Positions 2,274-28,967 of a stretch of 30,948 nucleotides of DNA are shown here, one piece after another. The notes below the pieces were generated by a model. That model had not been told where the DNA came from and searched no databases. It saw only the letters and a program-made list of their open reading frames with translations. How positions within the stretch are numbered: the first letter of the stretch is position 1; every line of letters starts with the position of its first letter. The position numbers were made by a program, and so were the translations under genes. Origin of the DNA: a virus; the IMG/VR virus record IMGVR_UViG_3300044457_000006, positions 1 through 30,948 of that record; one strand, written 5' to 3'.

Positions 2274-5200
2274 TTAGAAGTTCGCTACCTTTCTGATAAC
2301 GTCCTTGTGTGTCTTTTGAACATTGGTTCGAGTCAGCACCTGCTTGCCCTCAATCAAGTCGTTAGAAAGGTTCCGATCAAGTTGAATAATCAGTGGCTGG
2401 CTGTTTCTTGAACCAGAGGTCGGGAATGGGATCACATTTGTGGGAGGCCCACTTCTTCCTGTTGCGGTCGCAGCACTGCCGCCGCTCGCTGCACTACCGC
2501 TCCCAGCAGACGCAGAGGAATTATGCTGGCTGAACTTAGATGCAAGACCAGTCATCACTGCACCGAATGCCAACATTGCTATACCGGCTGCGGCCAGTGC
2601 TCCAGCGCTCCAATTCAGCCCAGGAATGAAAGCAAAGCCAGCAGCAGCAAGCACGAACAATGTGCCAAGCTGAATTGCAATTTCGCCTATTATGCGGAAG
2701 AAGCTAACTAACAACGCATGACCTAAACTGTCAGTTCCAGCAACAGCCCCTGCAATCGCATCCGTGAATGCGTGAATCCCGGCAGTAAGCACGCCTTCCC
2801 AATCAACCATCTGCCTGAGCACATCTATAGCGGAAACATTTGTAGCCGTAAGCAGCCTTACTCGCTCTTCAAATTGATCAACTGAGCGGCTGGCTGAACC
2901 GAAATATTTGTCTACATCACTGGCAGCAATGCCAACGTCTTTCAATTTATCGAGCGAACCTTCGATCCTGAGATTAATTGCGAAGCTTTGCTCATCTGAC
3001 AAAGCGCCTGGACGTATTCTCGAAAGCAGTTGATTGCGTACCCGCTCAACCTCCTTCATCTGCTCAATCTGAAGTCTGTTTTGCTGCCTCCACCACAACA
3101 CATTGCTTTTATGCACATCATCAAGTAATTTGACCCTGATCTTATAAATATCTCCTGCGAGATTTCTTTCGGCCTCCAGAGCCTTTACGTTGAACTTATC
3201 GGTCTCATCCGACAACCATCTTAGATAATCGCCTTCGAGCGCTCGCTTATAATCATCCAATGCTATAAATATGAAAATGTCATCATCTGACATCTTGCGA
3301 AGCCTTCGCTCTTCTTGTGCGAACTCTGCTACAATCGTTGCTTGCCTTCTGTCAGTTTCCTCCTTGATTCCGCGTATCTGAATTTGGCGAATCCTGTCAT
3401 AAACGTCCTGCTCTGCATTGAGCCGCGCTTGCTCAATGCCAGCAATCTGCGCCCGCTCCATCCGATCAATAGCAGCAAGCGCAGCAGCCCTATCCCGGTT
3501 GTTTACTTGCAGGTGAGCGCGAAGAGCCTGCGCCTCGATATGGAACTTGGCTTCCTGCGCTCCAGGTGTAGAACCGCGCAAAGCTATCTCTGCTTCATCG
3601 GCCCGTTTGGCCAGGTCTATGAGGGCATTTGAATAAGAACGTGCGGCAGCAGCACCACCCTTATGATGTTCAGCACCTCTTTGAACTGAACTCGCAACCT
3701 TTTCGTGAATAGCAAAGAAAGTGGCCGCTGTATCCGCAGTCTGTTGTAATGCGCGCGCCGCTTCGAGTTCGGTTTGCTTCTTCTTATTTACGCCATCCGT
3801 GAGCGCGTGGGTTACGGTCAGTTCTTTTTGTTTGGCTCTGACCTGATCTTCGATAGCCGCTTGGTTAGCCAGATAAACATCTCTTTGACTCTTTCCGGCA
3901 GCCAGGTCACGATTGATCTGATCATTTAACTGCTCGCGCGTCTTCGCTTGCCCTTCACTGGTAGCTGAAAGATTACGTTGGGCAATTCTTACCGTATCCA
4001 GCGCCGCTGCCCACTCAAGTTCAGCACGCGCAGTTCCGTAAAGCACACCTATCATTTGTTCAAGCGCAGAACTGTTGATACCAAGCTGGCTTGCCTGATC
4101 TCTAAGCTTCTGCTCAGAAATATTCAATGTATCAACCAATCTGATAAGTGATTTTGAATGCTCTCTAAGCGTACCTTCAGCCTTGCTGCGTTCGTTTTCT
4201 TCGGTTTGCATCGCCAGTTTTGCAGCATCAATAGCCTCAACCTGTTGTTGCATTGCGTAATTTAAAGCTTCCTCAGTTCTGCTAAAACTCGTAGCTACTT
4301 TTGCCGCCTCTTCTTGTGAAACTGCCACTTCGCCGGTCAACACCTTCATCTTATATTGTGAAAAAGCTAATTCGTTTTGTTGATCGGCCAACCCTTCATT
4401 CGCGGCTCTCAAAATGTTTTGCGCTCTTATAGCCTCATTGGTTTTGTCATTTGCCTGATCGCTCGCTTTAGCAAAGTTCAACATTGTAGCTGCCAGGTCT
4501 ACGCCGAGAATTTGCTTCAGACTATCGTTTTGCTGATTAAGGCTACCTTTGAATATATCGCTCGCATTTGTGAGTTGGCCGAAGACTCTGGCTAAATCGA
4601 TGTCGCGCTGGATAAGCTCTTCGGTAACTCTTAAAGAATCCTCACTGACTTCTTTCTGCTTGTCCTGAGCTTCCCCAAGCTCAAGGAAGTGCCCAATCAG
4701 AGTGCCGCCCACGGTCAAAAGCAAAGACATCCCCACACTCATTCCACCGAGCGACCTGATCACTGCACTGACCGGCGCATCATATCCGGCCCAAGCGGTT
4801 CCCTGGCTTGAAATCTGAGTCGTCGTCGTATTCATAAGGGTAGAGAGAATACCCATAGCCCCGCTCGTTTTACCGAGGCTCTCATTCGATTTATCCTGTG
4901 CTGCGATTGTGGCGCTTGTGGCCTGGCGAATTCTTTCAAGCTCTGCGGCGGACTCTTGCCTTGCGGCAGCTACCCTTTGCATTGATGCAGCCGCACGGGC
5001 GGAAGCTGCGGTTTCATCACTCCATGCGGCTGCAAGTTTTCTTACTTCTGTTCCGGCTTGTGCCGCGCCAGCAGTGAAGCGCCTTGTTGCTTCTATGTTA
5101 GTGTTCACAGTAGCAGTAGCACTTTGCGCAGCCCTTTCATATCCAGACATCGCCGTCGCGGCGACAGCAGTTCCCGATTGCGCAGCAGCCCCTATGCCTT

Positions 5201-5285: not shown

Positions 5286-6041
5286 CGTTTTTCTCGTTTG
5301 CTTTGAAAGCGTGATAGGCTTCACGCTCTCTCATTTTAGCTCTGGCAACACGGGCATATTCCCAAGTGAACATATCTATTTCCGCAAGGGGCGGTTTGCC
5401 AGTCTCGATATAATCAAGGGCGTCGAACGCTTCCAGAGCTGCGTCGTAGTAAAAAACATCACCGCATTTTTTAATGATGGCTTCGACTACACTTCGCTCG
5501 AATGAGCAAGCCGAACAACCTCCAGACTGATCGCGCAACGCCTTTTGAGTAAGCAGTGATCCATATTCATCCCAAATCCATTCGGAGCATCCGTCTTTGT
5601 GATAATCAATTTCATACGGGTTCTGCTTCTCTCGGCGCTTGATTATTATCCCGACCGCCCGTTTCAGTTTCCCAATTCTTCGGCTTCAGGAAGGGCTATG
5701 CGGAGATAGCGCCCAAGCACCATGTCTATGAGCAGTCCATATTGACCAGTGTCAGACAACATCACTTGTTTGGCGGTAGTATTATTATCAACCAACAACT
5801 TCTCTTCTGCTTCGGTAAGCCCTTCGATTGCTATGCACTTCTTTTCAAAGAGAAAGTACACTGCGGCTTCAGGATTACCCCTTTTTCTGCCACCGCGCCC
5901 GTATGTAATATCGTTGTAAGTTTTATGAGAAACCTTATCCAGCTTCTCAAACACAAAAATCCGATCCTGGCCCTCCGATGTGCGTGAGGGGACTTTCACC
6001 CGAATGTCATCATCAACGATTACGTCCTCAAAAAGCTTCAT
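5278..6041 (-). CDS. Tail assembly chaperone fusion (GT-like) made by -1 frameshift
   Basis: The frame downstream of the 125-residue chaperone is open from inside the end of that gene to the TGA at 5278, without a good start of its own: the only nearby start is a TTG at 5538, and about 43 in-frame codons precede it. The two frames overlap at the heptamer GGGAAAC (5667-5673), read as GGA AAC then TGA in the zero frame and as GGG AAA in the -1 frame. This is a textbook X XXY YYZ slippery site in exactly the lambda G/GT position. Slippage gives a protein of 254 residues whose extension starts LKRAVGIIIKRREKQNPYEI and contains several Cys. It would act with the shorter form to assemble the tail tube around the tape measure. 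I could not evaluate a stimulatory RNA fold. Confidence 0.8.
5664..6041 (-). CDS. Tail assembly chaperone (G-like)
   Basis: A soluble, charged 125-residue protein encoded between tail tube and tape measure, the standard place for the lambda G-type chaperone. The ATG at 6041 has a strong Shine-Dalgarno (AGGAGGGAATT). It ends four bases after the slippery GGGAAAC, so most ribosomes should stop here and a minority continue in the -1 frame. The role, by family knowledge, is to keep the tape measure soluble and recruit tube subunits; it is not expected in the finished virion. Sequence similarity alone would not identify it; position and the frameshift do. Confidence 0.8.
   Translation of the reverse strand: MKLFEDVIVDDDIRVKVPSRTSEGQDRIFVFEKLDKVSHKTYNDITYGRGGRKRGNPEAAVYFLFEKKCIAIEGLTEAEEKLLVDNNTTAKQVMLSDTGQYGLLIDMVLGRYLRIALPEAEELGN
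5667..5673 (-). promoter_or_regulatory. Slippery heptamer GGGAAAC for -1 ribosomal frameshifting
   Basis: Read on the minus strand, G GGA AAC sits in the zero frame immediately before the TGA of the short chaperone. Both P- and A-site tRNAs can re-pair at GGG AAA, giving the extended product. The site is of the class used by lambda (GGGAAAG). Confidence 0.82.
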
Positions 6042-9740: not shown

Positions 9741-12239
9741 CTATGAGCCGATTGGCTGTGATTTCACAACAGGCTCCCACATACACGGCCCACCGCCGAA
9801 TATGAACCTGCACTTGTGGCGAGTAATCACATCGTTGTTGAACGCCTTTTCGTGCGTCTCGCCCATCATGTCGTAGAACTCAGGCTCTTCGTTGCCCATC
9901 CAGTAGCCGATCTCCACGATGTCTGCTTCCTTGTTGGAAGCCGTCACCATCCAGTCGTTTGAGTCGGGTAGAAAAGGCAGACCAACGGGGTTGATCTTCA
10001 CGCGGCCACCTGCGCTCCGCAGAAGGCGATCTAACGCGCTCGTATTACCGCCTGGTTCCTGATTGAAGTCAGTCAAAGTCTGAGCTTTCAAGATGCTATC
10101 TGAGCGCACTGCAAGCGTCAGATCGGTCAGATCAAATCCGAACTTCTCATTCGAGCCACGCTCGGTTTGCATCAACAGCTTGCCTAATGCGTTCTCCAGG
10201 CCGGTATTACCGAGAGCGTCCGTTATAAGGTTGTTGTGACTCGCGTGGAATAGCGCAAGACTGTCGCTTGCCATAGTAGGATTGCTGAAAAGGCAGTCCA
10301 ACCATACGAACTTTGCGAGTGTGCGCCGCGCGGCGCGTCCCATCTTGTCGGGAACCTGCCTTAGCGTCTTCGTCTCGTCGTTCGCTATCGTTTCAATTGT
10401 CAAATCGACGGTCTTACCGTGTTTTAGTGGCGAGTACGTCTCCTTGTCATCGGTCAGCGCCGCATAGGTTGTATACTCCCCGTTCTCTGCAACTACCGGC
10501 AGATCTCCATAGAAGCCGAGCACAATGATGATTTGGGGTTTGAAATCATCTAATGCCCGTTTGGTCACGACGCGAGGCAGGCCATAGTCATTCTCCCTAA
10601 ACGATGCGACCACGCGCTTATGCATCAGGTTCGACATCAGATCAGGGAAGTCTGACGTTTGATACGGCGTTTGCGACTGCCGGGCGAAGCGGCGGCCTTG
10701 TCGGTATGCGCGGCTGTTTATGCCTTGGAGGTTGTGATCGCCGGTCATATCGAAATACAGCCGCTTGACGCTGAAGATTTCCGGTGTGTCATTCCACTCC
10801 GACTCTGTTGGCCGGTATGGCGTATGCCCAGACTGCCTGACTTCCTGTTCGATGTAGCTTGATGTGCCCTCGAATTGTTGCCGGGTGAGTCCCATCATCT
10901 TCGCCGCGCCGAGTGTGATCTTGTCCAGCGAGTTCGCGCCGACAATCACAGTTCGACCATTATCAACCTGCCCTGATTGAGATAACACAGCCAAGGCTTC
11001 GCGCGTATCTTCGATCCGCGTGTTGATCTGATTTAAGGTGGTGTCTTTGGTTACTTTCTTACGCAGGCTTTGACGGACGGCTTCCTCCAGCCCTGAATCA
11101 TCAATGGCCTGATAGACCAGAGCTTGACGCACAACCAGCGGCAGCCGCTCGAACGGGATTTCATCATTATTAGCATTATTCTCCGTTCTCGCCTGTCTTG
11201 CAGTCTGCGTAGGTTCCTTTGTTGCTTCTTCAACGAAGCCGAGAGCCTGTTCGACAATGGCTTCGTCGGTGTGAATCGCTTCAACGATTTGTTCTGCTGT
11301 TGATTGACTGGTCACGCCCTGAGCGCCCCCGTTGACGAGCGATTGGCGCACGCTTTCAAATTGATCCGTGTTGAGGAAGTTGAATATGCTCAACAACGCT
11401 TTCTTATTCATCTCGTGTTCTCCTTGTTGCTGCTCGCGGTTGGACGCGAGGGCGTATTTCATGCGGCCCTTGGCTGCCGCTGTGGTTACAATGTCAATCG
11501 AGATCGGCTTGACCCTTTCGACATCAGTTGCTGGTTTTTGGTCAGTCCAGGTTACTTGCTTCGCCTGGATACCAACGAGAATTGAGGCTCCATAAAAATC
11601 GAGGTTCCCTGCTTTATAAGCAGCGTGCAAATCCTGGCGCAGCCAATCAGCGGAGGGTTTGATATGTAGTGTCATATCCATTCCCTGAGCCGTGATCTCC
11701 TTATCAGTCCACCATCCAACCTTGTTCTGTATTGAGCGTTCTGGAAGCTCGCGCATCTCTGTTTCAGTCGGATGATCCGCAAAGGCTCCGAGGTTCTCCC
11801 ACTCATAATCAGCAAAGGATTGTCTGAAGACTTCCGGTCGCCAGATGTGGCGCGTATCACTCAAGCCCCAGGCTACAACCTGAAATCGCCAAGCCCAACC
11901 TTCTTTGTCGAGGCTCTGCTTTATCGTCAGTTTATATGACTGCCTGACTTGAGTTTCAGCCTCTTGCTTATCAGGGTTGCCCACCTCAACATAAGACTCA
12001 GTGACTTCAACCGGCTCGCCAAACTTCACTTCTTCGCCTTCGATTGACCAGGCAATCCTGTAGGTCTTTCCGTCAATCTCGCTACAGGCGATTACTGAAT
12101 CATCAAAGACTTCTTTTGGGTAATAGAAGATCGGCTCATCACGCATCGGCTGGCGAAACGTCTTTCTGAGCGAGGCGTTTATTTTGTCAATCAGGTCGGT
12201 CAGGCTTGTACCCGACTGCTTGGTTATGTGAATTTTCAT
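9741..12239 (-). CDS. Prohead protease - scaffold - major capsid fusion protein
   Basis: One 832-residue open frame holds three roles that Mu separates into I, Z and T. Residues about 100-265 look like an HK97/Mu-type prohead serine protease: FADHP with candidate catalytic His156, FYGASI with candidate Ser219, and the IVTTAAAKG segment typical of the family C-terminus. Residues 277-430 are charged and helical, like a scaffold. Residues about 480-832 resemble Mu gpT-type major head protein (TLAKFVWLDCLFSN, FHASHNNLITDALGNTGLEN). A strong ribosome binding site precedes Met277, so a separate 556-residue scaffold-capsid could be made. The protease would cleave scaffold from capsid during prohead maturation. 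Fused protease-capsid proteins are known in some phages. Stop is TAG. Confidence 0.88.
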   Translation of the reverse strand: MKIHITKQSGTSLTDLIDKINASLRKTFRQPMRDEPIFYYPKEVFDDSVIACSEIDGKTYRIAWSIEGEEVKFGEPVEVTESYVEVGNPDKQEAETQVRQSYKLTIKQSLDKEGWAWRFQVVAWGLSDTRHIWRPEVFRQSFADYEWENLGAFADHPTETEMRELPERSIQNKVGWWTDKEITAQGMDMTLHIKPSADWLRQDLHAAYKAGNLDFYGASILVGIQAKQVTWTDQKPATDVERVKPISIDIVTTAAAKGRMKYALASNREQQQGEHEMNKKALLSIFNFLNTDQFESVRQSLVNGGAQGVTSQSTAEQIVEAIHTDEAIVEQALGFVEEATKEPTQTARQARTENNANNDEIPFERLPLVVRQALVYQAIDDSGLEEAVRQSLRKKVTKDTTLNQINTRIEDTREALAVLSQSGQVDNGRTVIVGANSLDKITLGAAKMMGLTRQQFEGTSSYIEQEVRQSGHTPYRPTESEWNDTPEIFSVKRLYFDMTGDHNLQGINSRAYRQGRRFARQSQTPYQTSDFPDLMSNLMHKRVVASFRENDYGLPRVVTKRALDDFKPQIIIVLGFYGDLPVVAENGEYTTYAALTDDKETYSPLKHGKTVDLTIETIANDETKTLRQVPDKMGRAARRTLAKFVWLDCLFSNPTMASDSLALFHASHNNLITDALGNTGLENALGKLLMQTERGSNEKFGFDLTDLTLAVRSDSILKAQTLTDFNQEPGGNTSALDRLLRSAGGRVKINPVGLPFLPDSNDWMVTASNKEADIVEIGYWMGNEEPEFYDMMGETHEKAFNNDVITRHKCRFIFGGGPCMWEPVVKSQPIGS
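11409..11425 (-). promoter_or_regulatory. Internal ribosome binding site and start within the protease-capsid gene
   Basis: AAGGAG (11420-11425) lies eight bases before an in-frame ATG (11409-11411) that begins MNKKALLSIFNFLNTDQ, residue 277 of the fusion. Spacing and sequence are ideal. It would yield a 556-residue scaffold-capsid product (9741-11411), analogous to nested Mu I/Z. Confidence 0.65.
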
Positions 12240-12365
12240 CCTACTGCCTCAAAATTGAATCGAGAGTGCCATTTAATTGTGCTCAAATGGCCTCAAAACA
12301 GCTTTTCCCGCCCTGCAACGCGCCGCAGAACCCCCAACGCGCCACAGGCCAAACAAACGCGATTT

Positions 12366-12707
12366 TTAGGCTTTCGGCAGGTTGGCTGCGAGAGCCTGAC
12401 TTACCGCTTCATCTATCATCGCCTTAACTTCATCCTTGCTGACAGCATCGGCAGGCACGCCAGCCACCGCGCGAGCCGCTGCTTTGCGAGCAGCCTCTTC
12501 ACGCATAGCCTCTTCAACCAAAGCATCAGTAACCTTCGTGCCTTGGATAGTGATGACGGTCTCACCATCTGCTGATCTTGTGGCTATCTGAGAATCAGGA
12601 ATGTCATTCAGGCCGTTAAAGGTGTGACCAATGAACAGCAGCCGTTCTCTGTCATTGTTTCCTTGAATCTCTTCAGTCCTATCTGCTCTTGCAGGTTTCT
12701 TTGGCAT
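12366..12707 (-). CDS. Small head-region protein of unknown function
   Basis: A 113-residue protein with basic N-terminus, a short beta stretch (SADGETVITIQGTKVTD) and an Ala/Glu-rich helical C-terminal half. It lies between the gp7/F-like gene and the protease-capsid fusion. Helical, charged proteins there often serve as extra scaffold, head-fibre or capsid accessory factors, but I see no family motif. AGGTGAG precedes the ATG. After it, 126 bases lacking any gene lead to the capsid fusion. Confidence 0.6.
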   Translation of the reverse strand: MPKKPARADRTEEIQGNNDRERLLFIGHTFNGLNDIPDSQIATRSADGETVITIQGTKVTDALVEEAMREEAARKAAARAVAGVPADAVSKDEVKAMIDEAVSQALAANLPKA

Positions 12708-24459: not shown

Positions 24460-25476
24460 CTACCGTTTCTTTTTACTCTCCTGGCGAGATGAGAATCGCT
24501 CAAAGAGCTTTTCAAGCGGCACATTTGCATTCTGCTCGCGCCTGTTGCTGATCGTGTCAATCAGAGTATCCAGATCGCGATAGCGACCGAAGCTGCCGAC
24601 GCGCGCAAGCTGTACAACACGCTCGGTTATCTCTTTCCCGTCAAAGCTCTCTTCGAGCCTTGCTCGTATTTCGTCTTCTCCGAGCGTGCCGAGACTGATT
24701 GACAGCTTGAGCCTGGAATGTACTCGTTGCAGCTTCGAGGAACGAATTGTTTGAGCGAGTTCTTCAGTGCCTATCAACACCACGCCGTTTTTCGCATGGT
24801 TCCAGATATGAACGAGCTGATTGATTGATTCGATCTTTAAGAAGTTAGCCTCGTCAACAGCTAAGAGGCGCGGCTGCTCGGCTAGTAAGCCCCTCACGCG
24901 TTGGATGAGCAAGTCTTTCGAGCCGGTATCAATATCACCTAACGCCCTGCAAATCGCGGCAAGAAAAGCACGAGGGGTGATCCCATCATAGGATTCGACA
25001 ATGACCATACCGCTTCGCGCGTTGTGGTTTGCAAAGTGTCGTGTGATTAAAGTCTTGCCCATGCCAGAAGGGCCAACAATGTCAACAAACATCCTGCTGT
25101 CGTGCGCTTCTGCCAGGCCGTGCTGGACCAGTTTCGCAGCCGTCACAGTTTCGTCAATCGTGTCGGCTTTCCCGCCCTGCTCTCTGTGATCCAACCAGCC
25201 GCGCATACGATTCTCGAAGCGCTCAAGCATCTCCTGAGAGCTTGCCCATTTGCAGGTCAGGTAGTTATAAACCGTGCTTTCACCCATCCCAACATTTTGA
25301 GCACGACCGCTCTCACCTTTACGCCGTCCATAAAACAGTTGCATTGCGCGACTGATCTGAGCGTTTGACCACTGGTACTTTTCTTTGAAAGCGAGTAACC
25401 GCTGGCGCAGTTTTTCATCCCACTTTACTGAGCCTCGATTGATGTCGGTTACGAATGCTGTATTGGGTTGAGTCAT
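24460..25476 (-). CDS. MuB-like transposition target-selection ATPase (AAA+)
   Basis: A 338-residue ATPase with an N-terminal DNA-binding region (about 20-95, SNAQISRAMQLFYGRRKGES then GESTVYNYL, a helix-turn-helix as in MuB) and an AAA+ domain: Walker A GPSGMGKT at 135-142, Walker B LLAVDEAN at 204-211, VVLIGTEEL (about 232-240) as sensor 1, and Arg candidates near 251-255. In Mu, B binds target DNA as ATP filaments, delivers it to the transpososome and gives target immunity. Good AGGAG Shine-Dalgarno. It is separated from the transposase by three small genes, unlike the direct A-B order in Mu. Confidence 0.92.
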   Translation of the reverse strand: MTQPNTAFVTDINRGSVKWDEKLRQRLLAFKEKYQWSNAQISRAMQLFYGRRKGESGRAQNVGMGESTVYNYLTCKWASSQEMLERFENRMRGWLDHREQGGKADTIDETVTAAKLVQHGLAEAHDSRMFVDIVGPSGMGKTLITRHFANHNARSGMVIVESYDGITPRAFLAAICRALGDIDTGSKDLLIQRVRGLLAEQPRLLAVDEANFLKIESINQLVHIWNHAKNGVVLIGTEELAQTIRSSKLQRVHSRLKLSISLGTLGEDEIRARLEESFDGKEITERVVQLARVGSFGRYRDLDTLIDTISNRREQNANVPLEKLFERFSSRQESKKKR

Positions 25477-25541
25477 TCATTCTCCTGTTGATTTGGCCGA
25501 ACCCTTCAGCTAGGATTCGGGAACATTCGTGAGTTCGGTTT

Positions 25542-25562
25542 GGCGCTGTTGGTAGCAGCGCC
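25542..25562. other. 7-bp hairpin between small gene and MuB-like gene
   Basis: GGCGCTG and CAGCGCC flank a seven-base loop, directly after the stop of the 140-residue gene. The minus-strand downstream lacks a U-tract (AAACCGAAC), although the plus strand has TTTCTTATTTC. A further repeat, CCGAAC (25497-25502) with GTTCGG (25533-25538), lies in the same gap. It may modulate MuB expression. Confidence 0.4.
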
Positions 25563-25566
25563 TTTC

Positions 25567-25989
25567 TTATTTCGGCAATCTGCGTCTTAGATTTCGGTCG
25601 AGAATTGTTGGATCGTATTCCTTCAATATCTTGTTGATCAGTCGCAGAGCGTCTTCGCTGCCTAGCTTCTCTCTATCGCCAAGGTTCGCGTAGGTTTTCG
25701 CTGCAACTCCTGCCAGTTGCTCAATCACAACCTGCGCTCCTATTGTTGCTGGGTCTGGTTGGTTTATCCCCTTGCCTGTCATTTCTCCCTCCCGTTTTTT
25801 GAGAATTTCCTGCCTGAATTTCAGAACTGTTTCGTGAGATAAATTCGGATTAAATAAGGTGATGAGTTGACGCCCGCTAAGTATCCTGAGCAATTCGATT
25901 GGAAGCTGCTTCAGATTCAAGATCAAACGTGCTGTTTCAGCTTCGATCTCTGATCGGGTTCTAGTAGGGATGTATGCTTCTCTGCCCAT
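25567..25989 (-). CDS. Hypothetical early protein between transposase and MuB
   Basis: A 140-residue, helical, charged protein (SEIEAETARLILNLKQLPIE; LFNPNLSHETVLKFRQEILK; LGSEDALRLINKILKEYDPT) with no signal peptide or Cys motifs. Start is three bases after the previous stop, with no strong Shine-Dalgarno, so translation is probably coupled. No family recognised. Being in the A-B interval it may assist transposition, but that is only location-based. Confidence 0.6.
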   Translation of the reverse strand: MGREAYIPTRTRSEIEAETARLILNLKQLPIELLRILSGRQLITLFNPNLSHETVLKFRQEILKKREGEMTGKGINQPDPATIGAQVVIEQLAGVAAKTYANLGDREKLGSEDALRLINKILKEYDPTILDRNLRRRLPK

Positions 25990-25991
25990 CT

Positions 25992-26252
25992 TTACAGTTC
26001 GCCTTCTTGGTATTCGATTTCAGGGACTTCAATATGCTGGCAAATGACAAGCGCGGCCTTTACCTGCTGCCCTTTTACCATCTCTCCAGCGACAGCAACG
26101 TCCTTTAATACAATGCGCGCGCGGCTTATGAATTCTTCAACAGCCACGTATGGAGAGAACCGCAACCGAGTCGCGGCCTGTTGCATCTCCAATCCAAGCC
26201 TTTCGAGAATGCCCGATAATTCAGCTTCCACTTCCATCTCGTCATCTGTCAT
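25992..26252 (-). CDS. Small acidic helical early protein
   Basis: About 86 residues from the ATG at 26252, chosen over an upstream GTG (26261) since GAGGTGA then sits at normal Shine-Dalgarno distance. N-terminal DDEMEVEAELSGILERLGLE is strongly acidic and helical; the remainder is helix (EEFISRARIVLKDVAVAGEM) and a strand (KAALVICQHIEV). No recognised family. Confidence 0.6.
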   Translation of the reverse strand: MTDDEMEVEAELSGILERLGLEMQQAATRLRFSPYVAVEEFISRARIVLKDVAVAGEMVKGQQVKAALVICQHIEVPEIEYQEGEL

Positions 26253-26262
26253 TTCGATCACC

Positions 26263-26481
26263 TCAGTTCAACCTTGCATTTCGCTTGACACGCTCGCGTA
26301 GAGCCTCGTCAACGCCAACTTCCCTGATGCGCGCAAGTGTTGTTGCGCCTGGTTGCACTTGGTTGCGCTTCTCGGCTTCTGCTTCGAATTGTGCTTTTAG
26401 ATATAAGCCAACCAAGTACATCGAGATGCCACCTGCAAGCATCCCCAAGAAAAAGACAATCGTTAATAATGTGGTTAGCAT
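26263..26481 (-). CDS. Small single-pass membrane protein
   Basis: 72 residues from the ATG at 26481, which overlaps the transposase stop (TAATG) and has GGAGG upstream. An N-terminal membrane helix (LTTLLTIVFFLGMLAGGISM and onward, about 1-30) precedes a basic/charged cytoplasmic-type tail (EAEAEKRNQVQPGATTLARI and ERVKRNARLN). Membrane proteins made early, coupled to transposase, sometimes act in superinfection exclusion or control; there is no evidence for either here. Confidence 0.6.
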   Translation of the reverse strand: MLTTLLTIVFFLGMLAGGISMYLVGLYLKAQFEAEAEKRNQVQPGATTLARIREVGVDEALRERVKRNARLN

Positions 26482-28913
26482 TAGTCCTCCCACCCTGCTT
26501 TGATCTCATCAGAGCTACCGTCTGACTCAAAGGTCTTCAAAGAATTGAATTCGTCTTCATCCTGTCGCGTATTCACAACGCGTAGATGTGATACTGCGGA
26601 GGTGGGCGCGTTCAGCAGCGCATCTGACGACTTGCGATCAAACCGAGTTAAGACTGTTACTGATGCGCCTCTATCTGCTGAATCAGGAAGCTCAATCGGC
26701 GTGATGTCATCGGCTCCAACTGCCAATGGTAATGCTTCCGGCAACCGTTCAGCCGCATAATCTCGCCAGTCCGAAGGCTGTTGTGTTTTGAAGAACTCTT
26801 GCGCAGTCTGCTTGGCTTTTTTCTTGTCAGCGTTCGCGCGCTGGAAGTCATCCCGCGAAGCATTCCAGCCCATCAGTTGTGGACTCTCTACCCAGCAAAG
26901 CGTTACGCCCTGGGCCAATACTAATGCGCGACCAACGTTCGCAGGGTTATATCTCACTTCGACTTTCATTCGTTCAGGCAGGCGCATTAAGGCTGTACCA
27001 TCACTCAGGTCAGAAGAGACTTCGTTGTAGACAAATTTCTCTCCGAACCAGCGCATAGTGATCTTGTCGGCGTCAACCATCTCAACCCGTGCCAACATAG
27101 CCAACGCTGTGAGCGTAGTTTCTCGCATCGCGTGCGGCTCACCACCGAAGAGATTGATGTACTCTACTGGCGACATCTCGCCGCGCTCATTTGCAAGCGA
27201 GCCGTGCGGCTTCTGGTTGTAGGCAATCATCTGTGATTTGAAAGCCAAGCGCAGGTCGGCTTCGCTTAGAAAGGGCGTGCCGAAGCCATATCGGTCTCGG
27301 TAAACTTCATACGTGTCGCGCCAGAGCGGAGGGAGTTGGCTTAGATCTTCAGCCTTCGGTGCGTGCCCGTTTGCAAATGTCTTATGAACTGCCAATGCAG
27401 CTTTGTAGAAGTGTGGCTTTGCGGTCGTCTTATTGCCACAGAAGCCCGGCAATCCTTCTTCCCACAATCCAATACCATAACGATGAAACGGCTCAACTGT
27501 CTTTGATTTCGCGTTATATGGCTTTGCGTGACGAACTTTAAATTGAGCATCTACAGCCAAGCCGATTTTTAAGCTTTCAAGAATGCTGACTAACCCATTT
27601 TCAAGCTCAATTTTTCCGACCTTGATTTCCTTGCCCTCTACAATGTGTGCAGTGAACTCGCGCCCGTTGTCCCAAAGAGCAAATGGCTCGATACCGTTTG
27701 CACCACGTTGCTGTCCATACAATTTCTCAAAGCCTGCCTCCTGCTTCCATTGTGAGAAGCTAAGAGCATCAACGTAGGCGAGCGTGACACCCTTCGCCGA
27801 AGGCTTTTCATCTATGTGCCAGCCGAATACAGCGCGAGCCTTCAGGTCAAACACCGTGCAGAGCGTGAGCCGCACAAGAGCAGGCTTTTTGCTCTTGTCT
27901 TTTTTAAAAGGGAGCCAGCAAGCAAGATCGAAGGTGCGATAATCCATCGTCCATCCGACGCGCGGTTCCAAATCCTCATAATTGCGAGTGATGATGGCAA
28001 AGCGATTTTCGACGCCTCGCATACCCTCACGCGCAAGAACCATCGAGACGGCAGGCACGCTCTTTTTCCAGCGGGATAGGAAGTAATAGCAGGTATTCGG
28101 AACACCCGGCCTTGACTCCGTGAAAGGCAGCTTCACATCATTACGTCTTGCCCATTCAAGCCAACGCTCACCGTATAACGTCACCGAAGATTTGACGTAA
28201 GACTTCAAATTCACGCGCAACCAATCAATTGCTTCAAGAGGCATATCTACAAAGCGTTTGTCTTTCGCCGGTGAGAGCGTTTGCGTTTGTCGGATGAACG
28301 CGACCAGACCTTTCTTTTGATATTTGTCGAGCAAACGCAGGAAGGTTGAAGTCGAGAGAGGCTTCGAGGCTGAAGGGTACATTTCAAGGTAGACAGGATC
28401 GGTAGAAGCGGTGCGCGCGGCCAGCTCAGCGAGCGAAGGGTGATAGGCTCGACCAGGACCGGCTTCATTCGCGCCTGACGATGCTACTGAGATACCTGTC
28501 GTTTGCTTCAGTTTGCCGATCAGCCTAATTGCGCTGTCGCACAGTTGAGCGAGTTCAAGACAGCGGCTCTCGACGGCTTGGCGCTGATCGAGCGTGTACT
28601 GAGGCGGCGAGAAGCGAGCGAGCGCGACTTGCAGTGCTTGGAGACGACTGTCTGGAGAAGGTGTTAGATCAGCCCGTCCCTCTATGCTGCAATCCCCTGC
28701 CGCGCTCGCTCCCCTCTCGGCGTCGAGCCTTGCCCATTTCAGTTGCAGGTCTGACGGTAAGCTGCTCAGTAGGATTAGATTGCGTGGTCTGCCAACCTGC
28801 CCTTGTCCGCTTTCCTGTATGGCAATCCACAGACCACCGTTAACACGCCTTTTTATCGTGCGTTCGCTTACTCCTAAAAGCAACAGATCTTTCGTCGAAA
28901 TGTAAACTGACAT
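26481..28913 (-). CDS. MuA-like DDE transposase
   Basis: An 810-residue transposase from the ATG at 28913; a TTG at 28940 would add nine residues. Domain order follows MuA: an N-terminal winged helix (STKDLLLLGVSERTIKRRV), helical DNA-binding regions to about 300, then the RNase H-fold core with WTMDYRTFDL (candidate Asp324), FALWDNGREF (Asp415) and AKSKTVEPFHR (Glu474), spaced 91 and 59 residues, comparable to MuA. A beta-barrel-like domain follows (about 600-690, KVEVRYNPANVGRALVLAQG) and a C-terminal region with charged residues, as needed for MuB contact. It cuts phage ends and joins them to target DNA for integration and replicative transposition. Confidence 0.95.
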   Translation of the reverse strand: MSVYISTKDLLLLGVSERTIKRRVNGGLWIAIQESGQGQVGRPRNLILLSSLPSDLQLKWARLDAERGASAAGDCSIEGRADLTPSPDSRLQALQVALARFSPPQYTLDQRQAVESRCLELAQLCDSAIRLIGKLKQTTGISVASSGANEAGPGRAYHPSLAELAARTASTDPVYLEMYPSASKPLSTSTFLRLLDKYQKKGLVAFIRQTQTLSPAKDKRFVDMPLEAIDWLRVNLKSYVKSSVTLYGERWLEWARRNDVKLPFTESRPGVPNTCYYFLSRWKKSVPAVSMVLAREGMRGVENRFAIITRNYEDLEPRVGWTMDYRTFDLACWLPFKKDKSKKPALVRLTLCTVFDLKARAVFGWHIDEKPSAKGVTLAYVDALSFSQWKQEAGFEKLYGQQRGANGIEPFALWDNGREFTAHIVEGKEIKVGKIELENGLVSILESLKIGLAVDAQFKVRHAKPYNAKSKTVEPFHRYGIGLWEEGLPGFCGNKTTAKPHFYKAALAVHKTFANGHAPKAEDLSQLPPLWRDTYEVYRDRYGFGTPFLSEADLRLAFKSQMIAYNQKPHGSLANERGEMSPVEYINLFGGEPHAMRETTLTALAMLARVEMVDADKITMRWFGEKFVYNEVSSDLSDGTALMRLPERMKVEVRYNPANVGRALVLAQGVTLCWVESPQLMGWNASRDDFQRANADKKKAKQTAQEFFKTQQPSDWRDYAAERLPEALPLAVGADDITPIELPDSADRGASVTVLTRFDRKSSDALLNAPTSAVSHLRVVNTRQDEDEFNSLKTFESDGSSDEIKAGWED

Positions 28914-28967
28914 ACAGGTCAACCGCTGAGAGCCATTCAAGATCGTTCAATTTGAGGAATCAGGTAT

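Follow-up and report, generated by a model that had tools for sequence, protein, structure and literature searches.

In bacteriophage Mu, gene I contains an internal Shine-Dalgarno (SD) sequence and start codon, in frame and after the protease (AGGAG-9-ATG); the Mu record describes gene Z as having a 'start site internal to gene I', the internal product is the scaffold only, and the capsid gene T is separate. An earlier sequence-only reading of the locus described here had taken I, Z and T of Mu to be coded separately, which is correct for T and wrong for I and Z, as the Mu record places the start of Z inside I. Lambda C/Nu3 is likewise a nested protease-scaffold pair with an internal start; the lambda protease is an S49 family peptidase and the capsid gene E is separate. 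In herpesviruses the UL26/UL26.5 system has a nested scaffold product, made from a separate transcript, and the capsid protein is separate.

The fusion of protease, scaffold and capsid in one gene is as such already known. Gifsy-2 reportedly has a 'tripartite capsid gene' consisting of ClpP protease, scaffold and capsid. For Pseudomonas phage MD8 a single gene has been suggested to encode protease, scaffold and major capsid protein (MCP), and the available sections of that account do not describe an internal start (PMC8508860). One-gene fusions have also been published for Arthrobacter phages of the AM, AU and AN clusters (PMC5513430) and for Paracoccus prophages (PMC6536676), and NCBIfam curates two prohead protease/MCP fusion families, NF045541 and NF045540. 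No report of an internal start in fused genes was found in the open-access PMC literature. In the survey below such a start is apparently general in fused protease-scaffold-capsid genes.

The fused gene and its domains

The window, i.e. the whole stretch of DNA analysed, comprises 30,948 nucleotides of a viral genome (IMG/VR record IMGVR_UViG_3300044457_000006). A reading frame on its minus strand runs from 12239 to 9741 (9741..12239, 832 codons plus stop) and codes for 832 residues, in the order N-terminal domain, protease domain, helical scaffold region and HK97-fold capsid domain. The frame, the domain matches and the predicted fold thus bear out the initial proposal that protease, scaffold and capsid are contained in a single 832-residue gene. 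The neighbouring genes include Mu F-like, portal-like, terminase large subunit, and TnpA- and TnpB-like ones, and on these grounds the reading of the virus as a Mu-like phage holds. Homologues of a transposase (phrog_310) and a DNA transposition protein (phrog_296) at 24460-28940 on the minus strand mark the phage as transposable, and in having TnpA and TnpB homologues it resembles Mu. A 113-residue protein encoded at 12366-12707 on the minus strand, with the F-like gene on one side and the fusion gene on the other, had no significant family match.

The capsid domain (residues 527-832; 9744..10661, minus strand) was identified both by sequence and by the predicted model. Pfam PF25209 (Phage_capsid_4) matches residues 517-818 with E 2e-32 and 113.8 bits, above the curated cut-off of 27, and in Foldseek searches against the PDB encapsulins and HK97-fold phage capsids were the top matches (best E 3e-8; identities taken from the best 50 of 310 matches at E ≤0.001). 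The whole protein gives a full-length match to phrog_29592, a family without stated function (residues 11-817 against profile positions 83-878 of 893, E 2.9e-56). The architecture is the same as in NF045541 and NF045540 and the capsid part matches both (E 2e-39 and 4e-33, respectively), although the gene scores well below the curated cut-offs of the two families (136 against 525 bits and 115 against 475 bits). With Gifsy-2 and MD8 gp5 it shares three functions per gene and a homologous capsid domain, but their proteases are of ClpP type, whereas that of the window gene is gp21/assemblin-like. Among the isolated relatives built in this way are Pseudomonas phage MD8 and Microcystis phage Mae-JY22.

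The protease domain (residues 113-265; 11445..11903, minus strand) is weakly recognisable by sequence. It matches phrog_15531, 'head maturation protease', with E 3e-8 over residues 106-332, whereas Pfam gave no match to the domain in the window gene and nothing beyond single chance-like matches in the protease domains of 61 relatives, and a PDB profile search gave three matches, all weak and unrelated. When the domain was modelled alone (mean pLDDT 90), the top structural match was T4 gp21 (Z 11.0, rmsd 2.6, 126 aligned of 165 residues). Herpesvirus proteases ranked next (Z 9.0 and below), so that the predicted fold is also like that of UL26, and head maturation proteases in a viral structure library were matched as well. 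Foldseek against the PDB was weaker, and T4 gp21 was again the best match (E 1.5e-3). The predicted fold is thus clearly of the T4 gp21/assemblin type, and a protease fold is present where it had been expected, within residues 100-265.

Among 61 aligned relatives Ser219 (11583..11585) and Asp249 (11493..11495) are invariant (both 61/61). Ser219, which the sequence-only reading had named as a candidate together with His156, is the candidate nucleophile, and Asp249 is, from the alignment, likely to be the third catalytic residue. The candidate catalytic histidine, His156 (11772..11774), is less uniform in position: all 61 relatives have a histidine between G149 and G175, aligned at 156 in 5 and at 162 in 55, and the split could be because of an indel.

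The full-length AlphaFold2 model, made from 61 sequences, had a mean pLDDT of 80, with a confident protease domain (113-265) and helices to about residue 511. On the basis of position and helicity, residues 277-511 (10707..11411, minus strand) probably form a delta-like scaffold region. The low-confidence residues 512-525, just before the capsid domain, are a candidate maturation cleavage zone. An extra small domain is predicted ahead of the protease (residues 13-90; 11970..12203, minus strand), and it is partly common to some relatives.

The predicted internal start in the window gene and its relatives

The sequence AAGGAG (11420..11425, minus strand) lies 8 nt upstream of an in-frame ATG at codon 277 (11409..11411), exactly as the earlier reading had it. 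The predicted product of this start is a 556-residue scaffold-capsid protein. The duplex of the internal SD with the anti-SD sequence was calculated at -8.5 kcal/mol, compared to -5.6 kcal/mol for the GAGG element (12247..12250, minus strand) of the primary start (ATG 12239-12237). Around the internal site the mRNA energy was predicted to be -1.8 kcal/mol; the mean for the gene was -6.5 (standard deviation 2.9). In the model the site falls in a disordered linker (residues 266-277) after the protease. An 80 % identical gene (L001) has the same SD-8-ATG even though its linker residues have diverged (QQGEHE vs IPEGAKT), and it is found in a 70 % identical gene (L215) as well. Loss of the site in close relatives, which had been named as a possible refutation, was thus not seen, and the site is also kept in distant relatives.

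The arrangement resembles Mu I/Z in that an in-frame SD-ATG follows the protease, and it differs from both Mu and lambda in that the capsid is encoded in the same frame, so that the predicted internal product is a scaffold-capsid protein and not a scaffold only. An internal SD-ATG was also found after the ClpP domain in Gifsy-2 and MD8. P2 gene O showed no strong internal site right after the protease. As controls for the scoring, the annotated Z start was ranked first of 16 in-frame ATG/GTG codons in Mu gene I, and the RefSeq-annotated nu3 start (5132) was ranked fifth of 17 in lambda gene C. In the lambda gene (L294; NC_001416, 4400-7400) the strongest SD-ATG in frame within the gene is at 5342 (locus position 943), with -10.8 compared to -2.7 kcal/mol at 5132. 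The RefSeq-annotated nu3 start may be wrong; N-terminal data are said to favour a shorter Nu3.

Fused genes of three families were surveyed. The pool related to the window gene contained at least 131 loci including the window itself, of which 102 contained the anchor motif and were 540 residues or longer, giving 64 representatives of less than 70 % identity. Fusions with an HK97-type protease (MinM1-related) were at least 81 loci and gave 28 representatives, placed by an alignment anchor, and fusions with a ClpP-type protease (MD8-related) were at least 81 loci by best query, of which 79 had at least 560 residues and 13 were representatives of less than 90 % identity. One of the six retrieval patterns for the HK97-type pool overlaps the internal site in the query, and none do so for the other two pools. 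Duplicate contigs were noted (L214 = L001, L258 = L087, L268 = L089). A site was counted when an in-frame ATG was present whose SD pairs with the anti-SD sequence at -5 kcal/mol or lower, in the family of the window gene at codons +6 to +30 past the protease-end motif; the survey windows were chosen after the sites had been seen. The controls were windows of equal length from other parts of these genes, other in-frame ATGs and 200 synonymous-codon shuffles.

The sequence-only reading had proposed asking how many Mu-like phages share the fusion and the internal site. A junction SD-ATG was present in 98 of the 105 non-redundant fused genes of the three families together, namely in 60 of 64 genes of the window family, 25 of 28 HK97-type and 13 of 13 ClpP-type fusions. 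The corresponding values for equal windows elsewhere were 8.1 % (n = 6721), 7.8 % and 8.2 %, and those for other in-frame ATGs 18.4 % (n = 826), 16.1 % and 11.0 %. Chance occurrence of the junction site is ruled out by these in-gene controls (about 8 % in equal windows). The synonymous shuffles had means of 56, 66 and 55 % and maxima, out of 200, of 67, 86 and 85 % in the same order of families. Shuffling that preserves the protein is a severe test, since the residues upstream of the start are themselves shaped to encode the SD. With the cut-off at -7 kcal/mol the window family was still above all shuffles (53 % compared to a maximum of 47 %), while the HK97-type (54 % against a shuffle mean of 47 %) and ClpP-type fusions (15 % against a mean of 20 %) were not, and in these two groups the excess was gone at both -7 and -8. 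Selection at the codon level is therefore well shown for the window family only.

The seven genes below the threshold differ among themselves. L092 has no junction site, L281 and L211 have an SD of -10.3 kcal/mol placed before TTG and GTG, respectively, L025 has AAAGGA before GTG, and in L289, L013 and L051 the duplexes are weak (-4.0, -4.3 and -0.9 kcal/mol). In the window family 29 loci had been left out because the anchor motif was missing or the sequence was too short. Among 18 of these that were inspected, 9 gave a G-x-S anchor and the other 9 no anchor. Six of the 9 anchored loci have an ATG with an SD of -6.0 kcal/mol or below (L239, L191, L177, L247, L186 and L091) and three are without such a site (L223, L210 and L193).

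The SD core in the window family occurs in two codon phases, as a Glu-type xxG-GAG in 40 and a Gly-type GGA-G in 20 of the 64 genes, with no 4-base core in the remaining 4. The start codon, which is ATG in 62 genes, TTG in one and GTG in one, lies 5-12 nt downstream of the SD, within the usual range of spacing. When the internal SD was compared with the best candidate SD upstream in 61 genes, it was the stronger of the two in 42, and the two were equal in one. The mRNA around the internal start is predicted to be unusually weakly structured, as is typical of starts: the mean local energy was -5.8 kcal/mol at the sites, compared to -10.1 for the genes (n = 64) and -10.0 for 823 other in-frame ATGs. 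The GC content at the sites was 52.5 %, against 60.4 %, and after subtraction of composition-matched shuffles a difference was still seen (+0.55 at the sites, -0.57 at other ATGs, p = 0.001).

Proposed use of the internal start and other explanations

We consider it highly probable that an internal start of the Mu I/Z type was kept after fusion to the capsid, and that it yields a majority of scaffold-capsid protein besides a minority of protease-scaffold-capsid protein. In the mechanism that we infer, which includes the use of the site, the direction and size of the product ratio, co-assembly and self-cleavage, ribosomes beginning at codon 1 would make the full-length protein, while independent initiation at codon 277 via the strong SD in the linker would yield a scaffold-capsid protein, and most capsomers would consist of this short form. 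The long form would co-assemble as a minority through its own capsid domain, bringing the protease into the procapsid, and once inside the protease would cut away the scaffold and itself. Without a second start each capsomer would take a protease part of about 265 residues into the procapsid, and this the second start would avoid.

The same protease-free capsid protein could in principle arise from a full-length protein only, through self-cleavage in the linker, leaving the internal SD functionless. For T4 and HK97 it is established that maturation proteases with this fold cut in scaffold linkers, and the model here has a disordered linker. Such cleavage explains neither why 98 of 105 genes have an SD with a start codon nor the use of two SD codon phases and of GTG or TTG in place of ATG, and we regard it as unlikely. 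The position of the site at a modelled domain boundary would also suit an SD that slows ribosomes for folding and starts nothing, since SD-like pausing has been proposed in bacteria. Pausing, however, requires neither a start codon 5-12 nt downstream nor unfolded mRNA, both of which are conserved, and this explanation appears very improbable. An equally slight chance is given to the site being the relic start of a formerly separate downstream gene, no longer under selection. Mu I/Z displays the ancestral kind of internal start, and the match to phrog_15531, a shorter protease family, spans the junction; a relic would nevertheless hardly be kept between lineages of less than 70 % identity, exceed the synonymous shuffles in the window family, or persist in L001 despite its diverged linker residues.

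Retention of the internal start after fusion to the capsid, with dual initiation, may apply more widely. It is rather likely, though less so than for the window gene itself, that a general rule holds in tailed phages, by which a maturation protease of any fold fused to the capsid is accompanied by a retained internal start, and protease-bearing capsomers are a minority. If true, such a rule would parallel retroviral Gag/Gag-Pol at the level of translation and would explain how a protease can be fused to every copy of the capsid gene without being present on every capsomer. It would also mean that current annotations of such fused genes lack a second protein, which is predicted to occur in phages and prophages numbering in the hundreds.

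Ten short frames were examined for a natural split at the junction, and most of these were contig ends. In two loci (L178 and L240) capsid frames of 463 residues that have the same start region are apparently not fused to a protease. The frames upstream of them look unrelated and by inspection not protease-like, and both capsid frames have a strong SD-ATG at codon 23.
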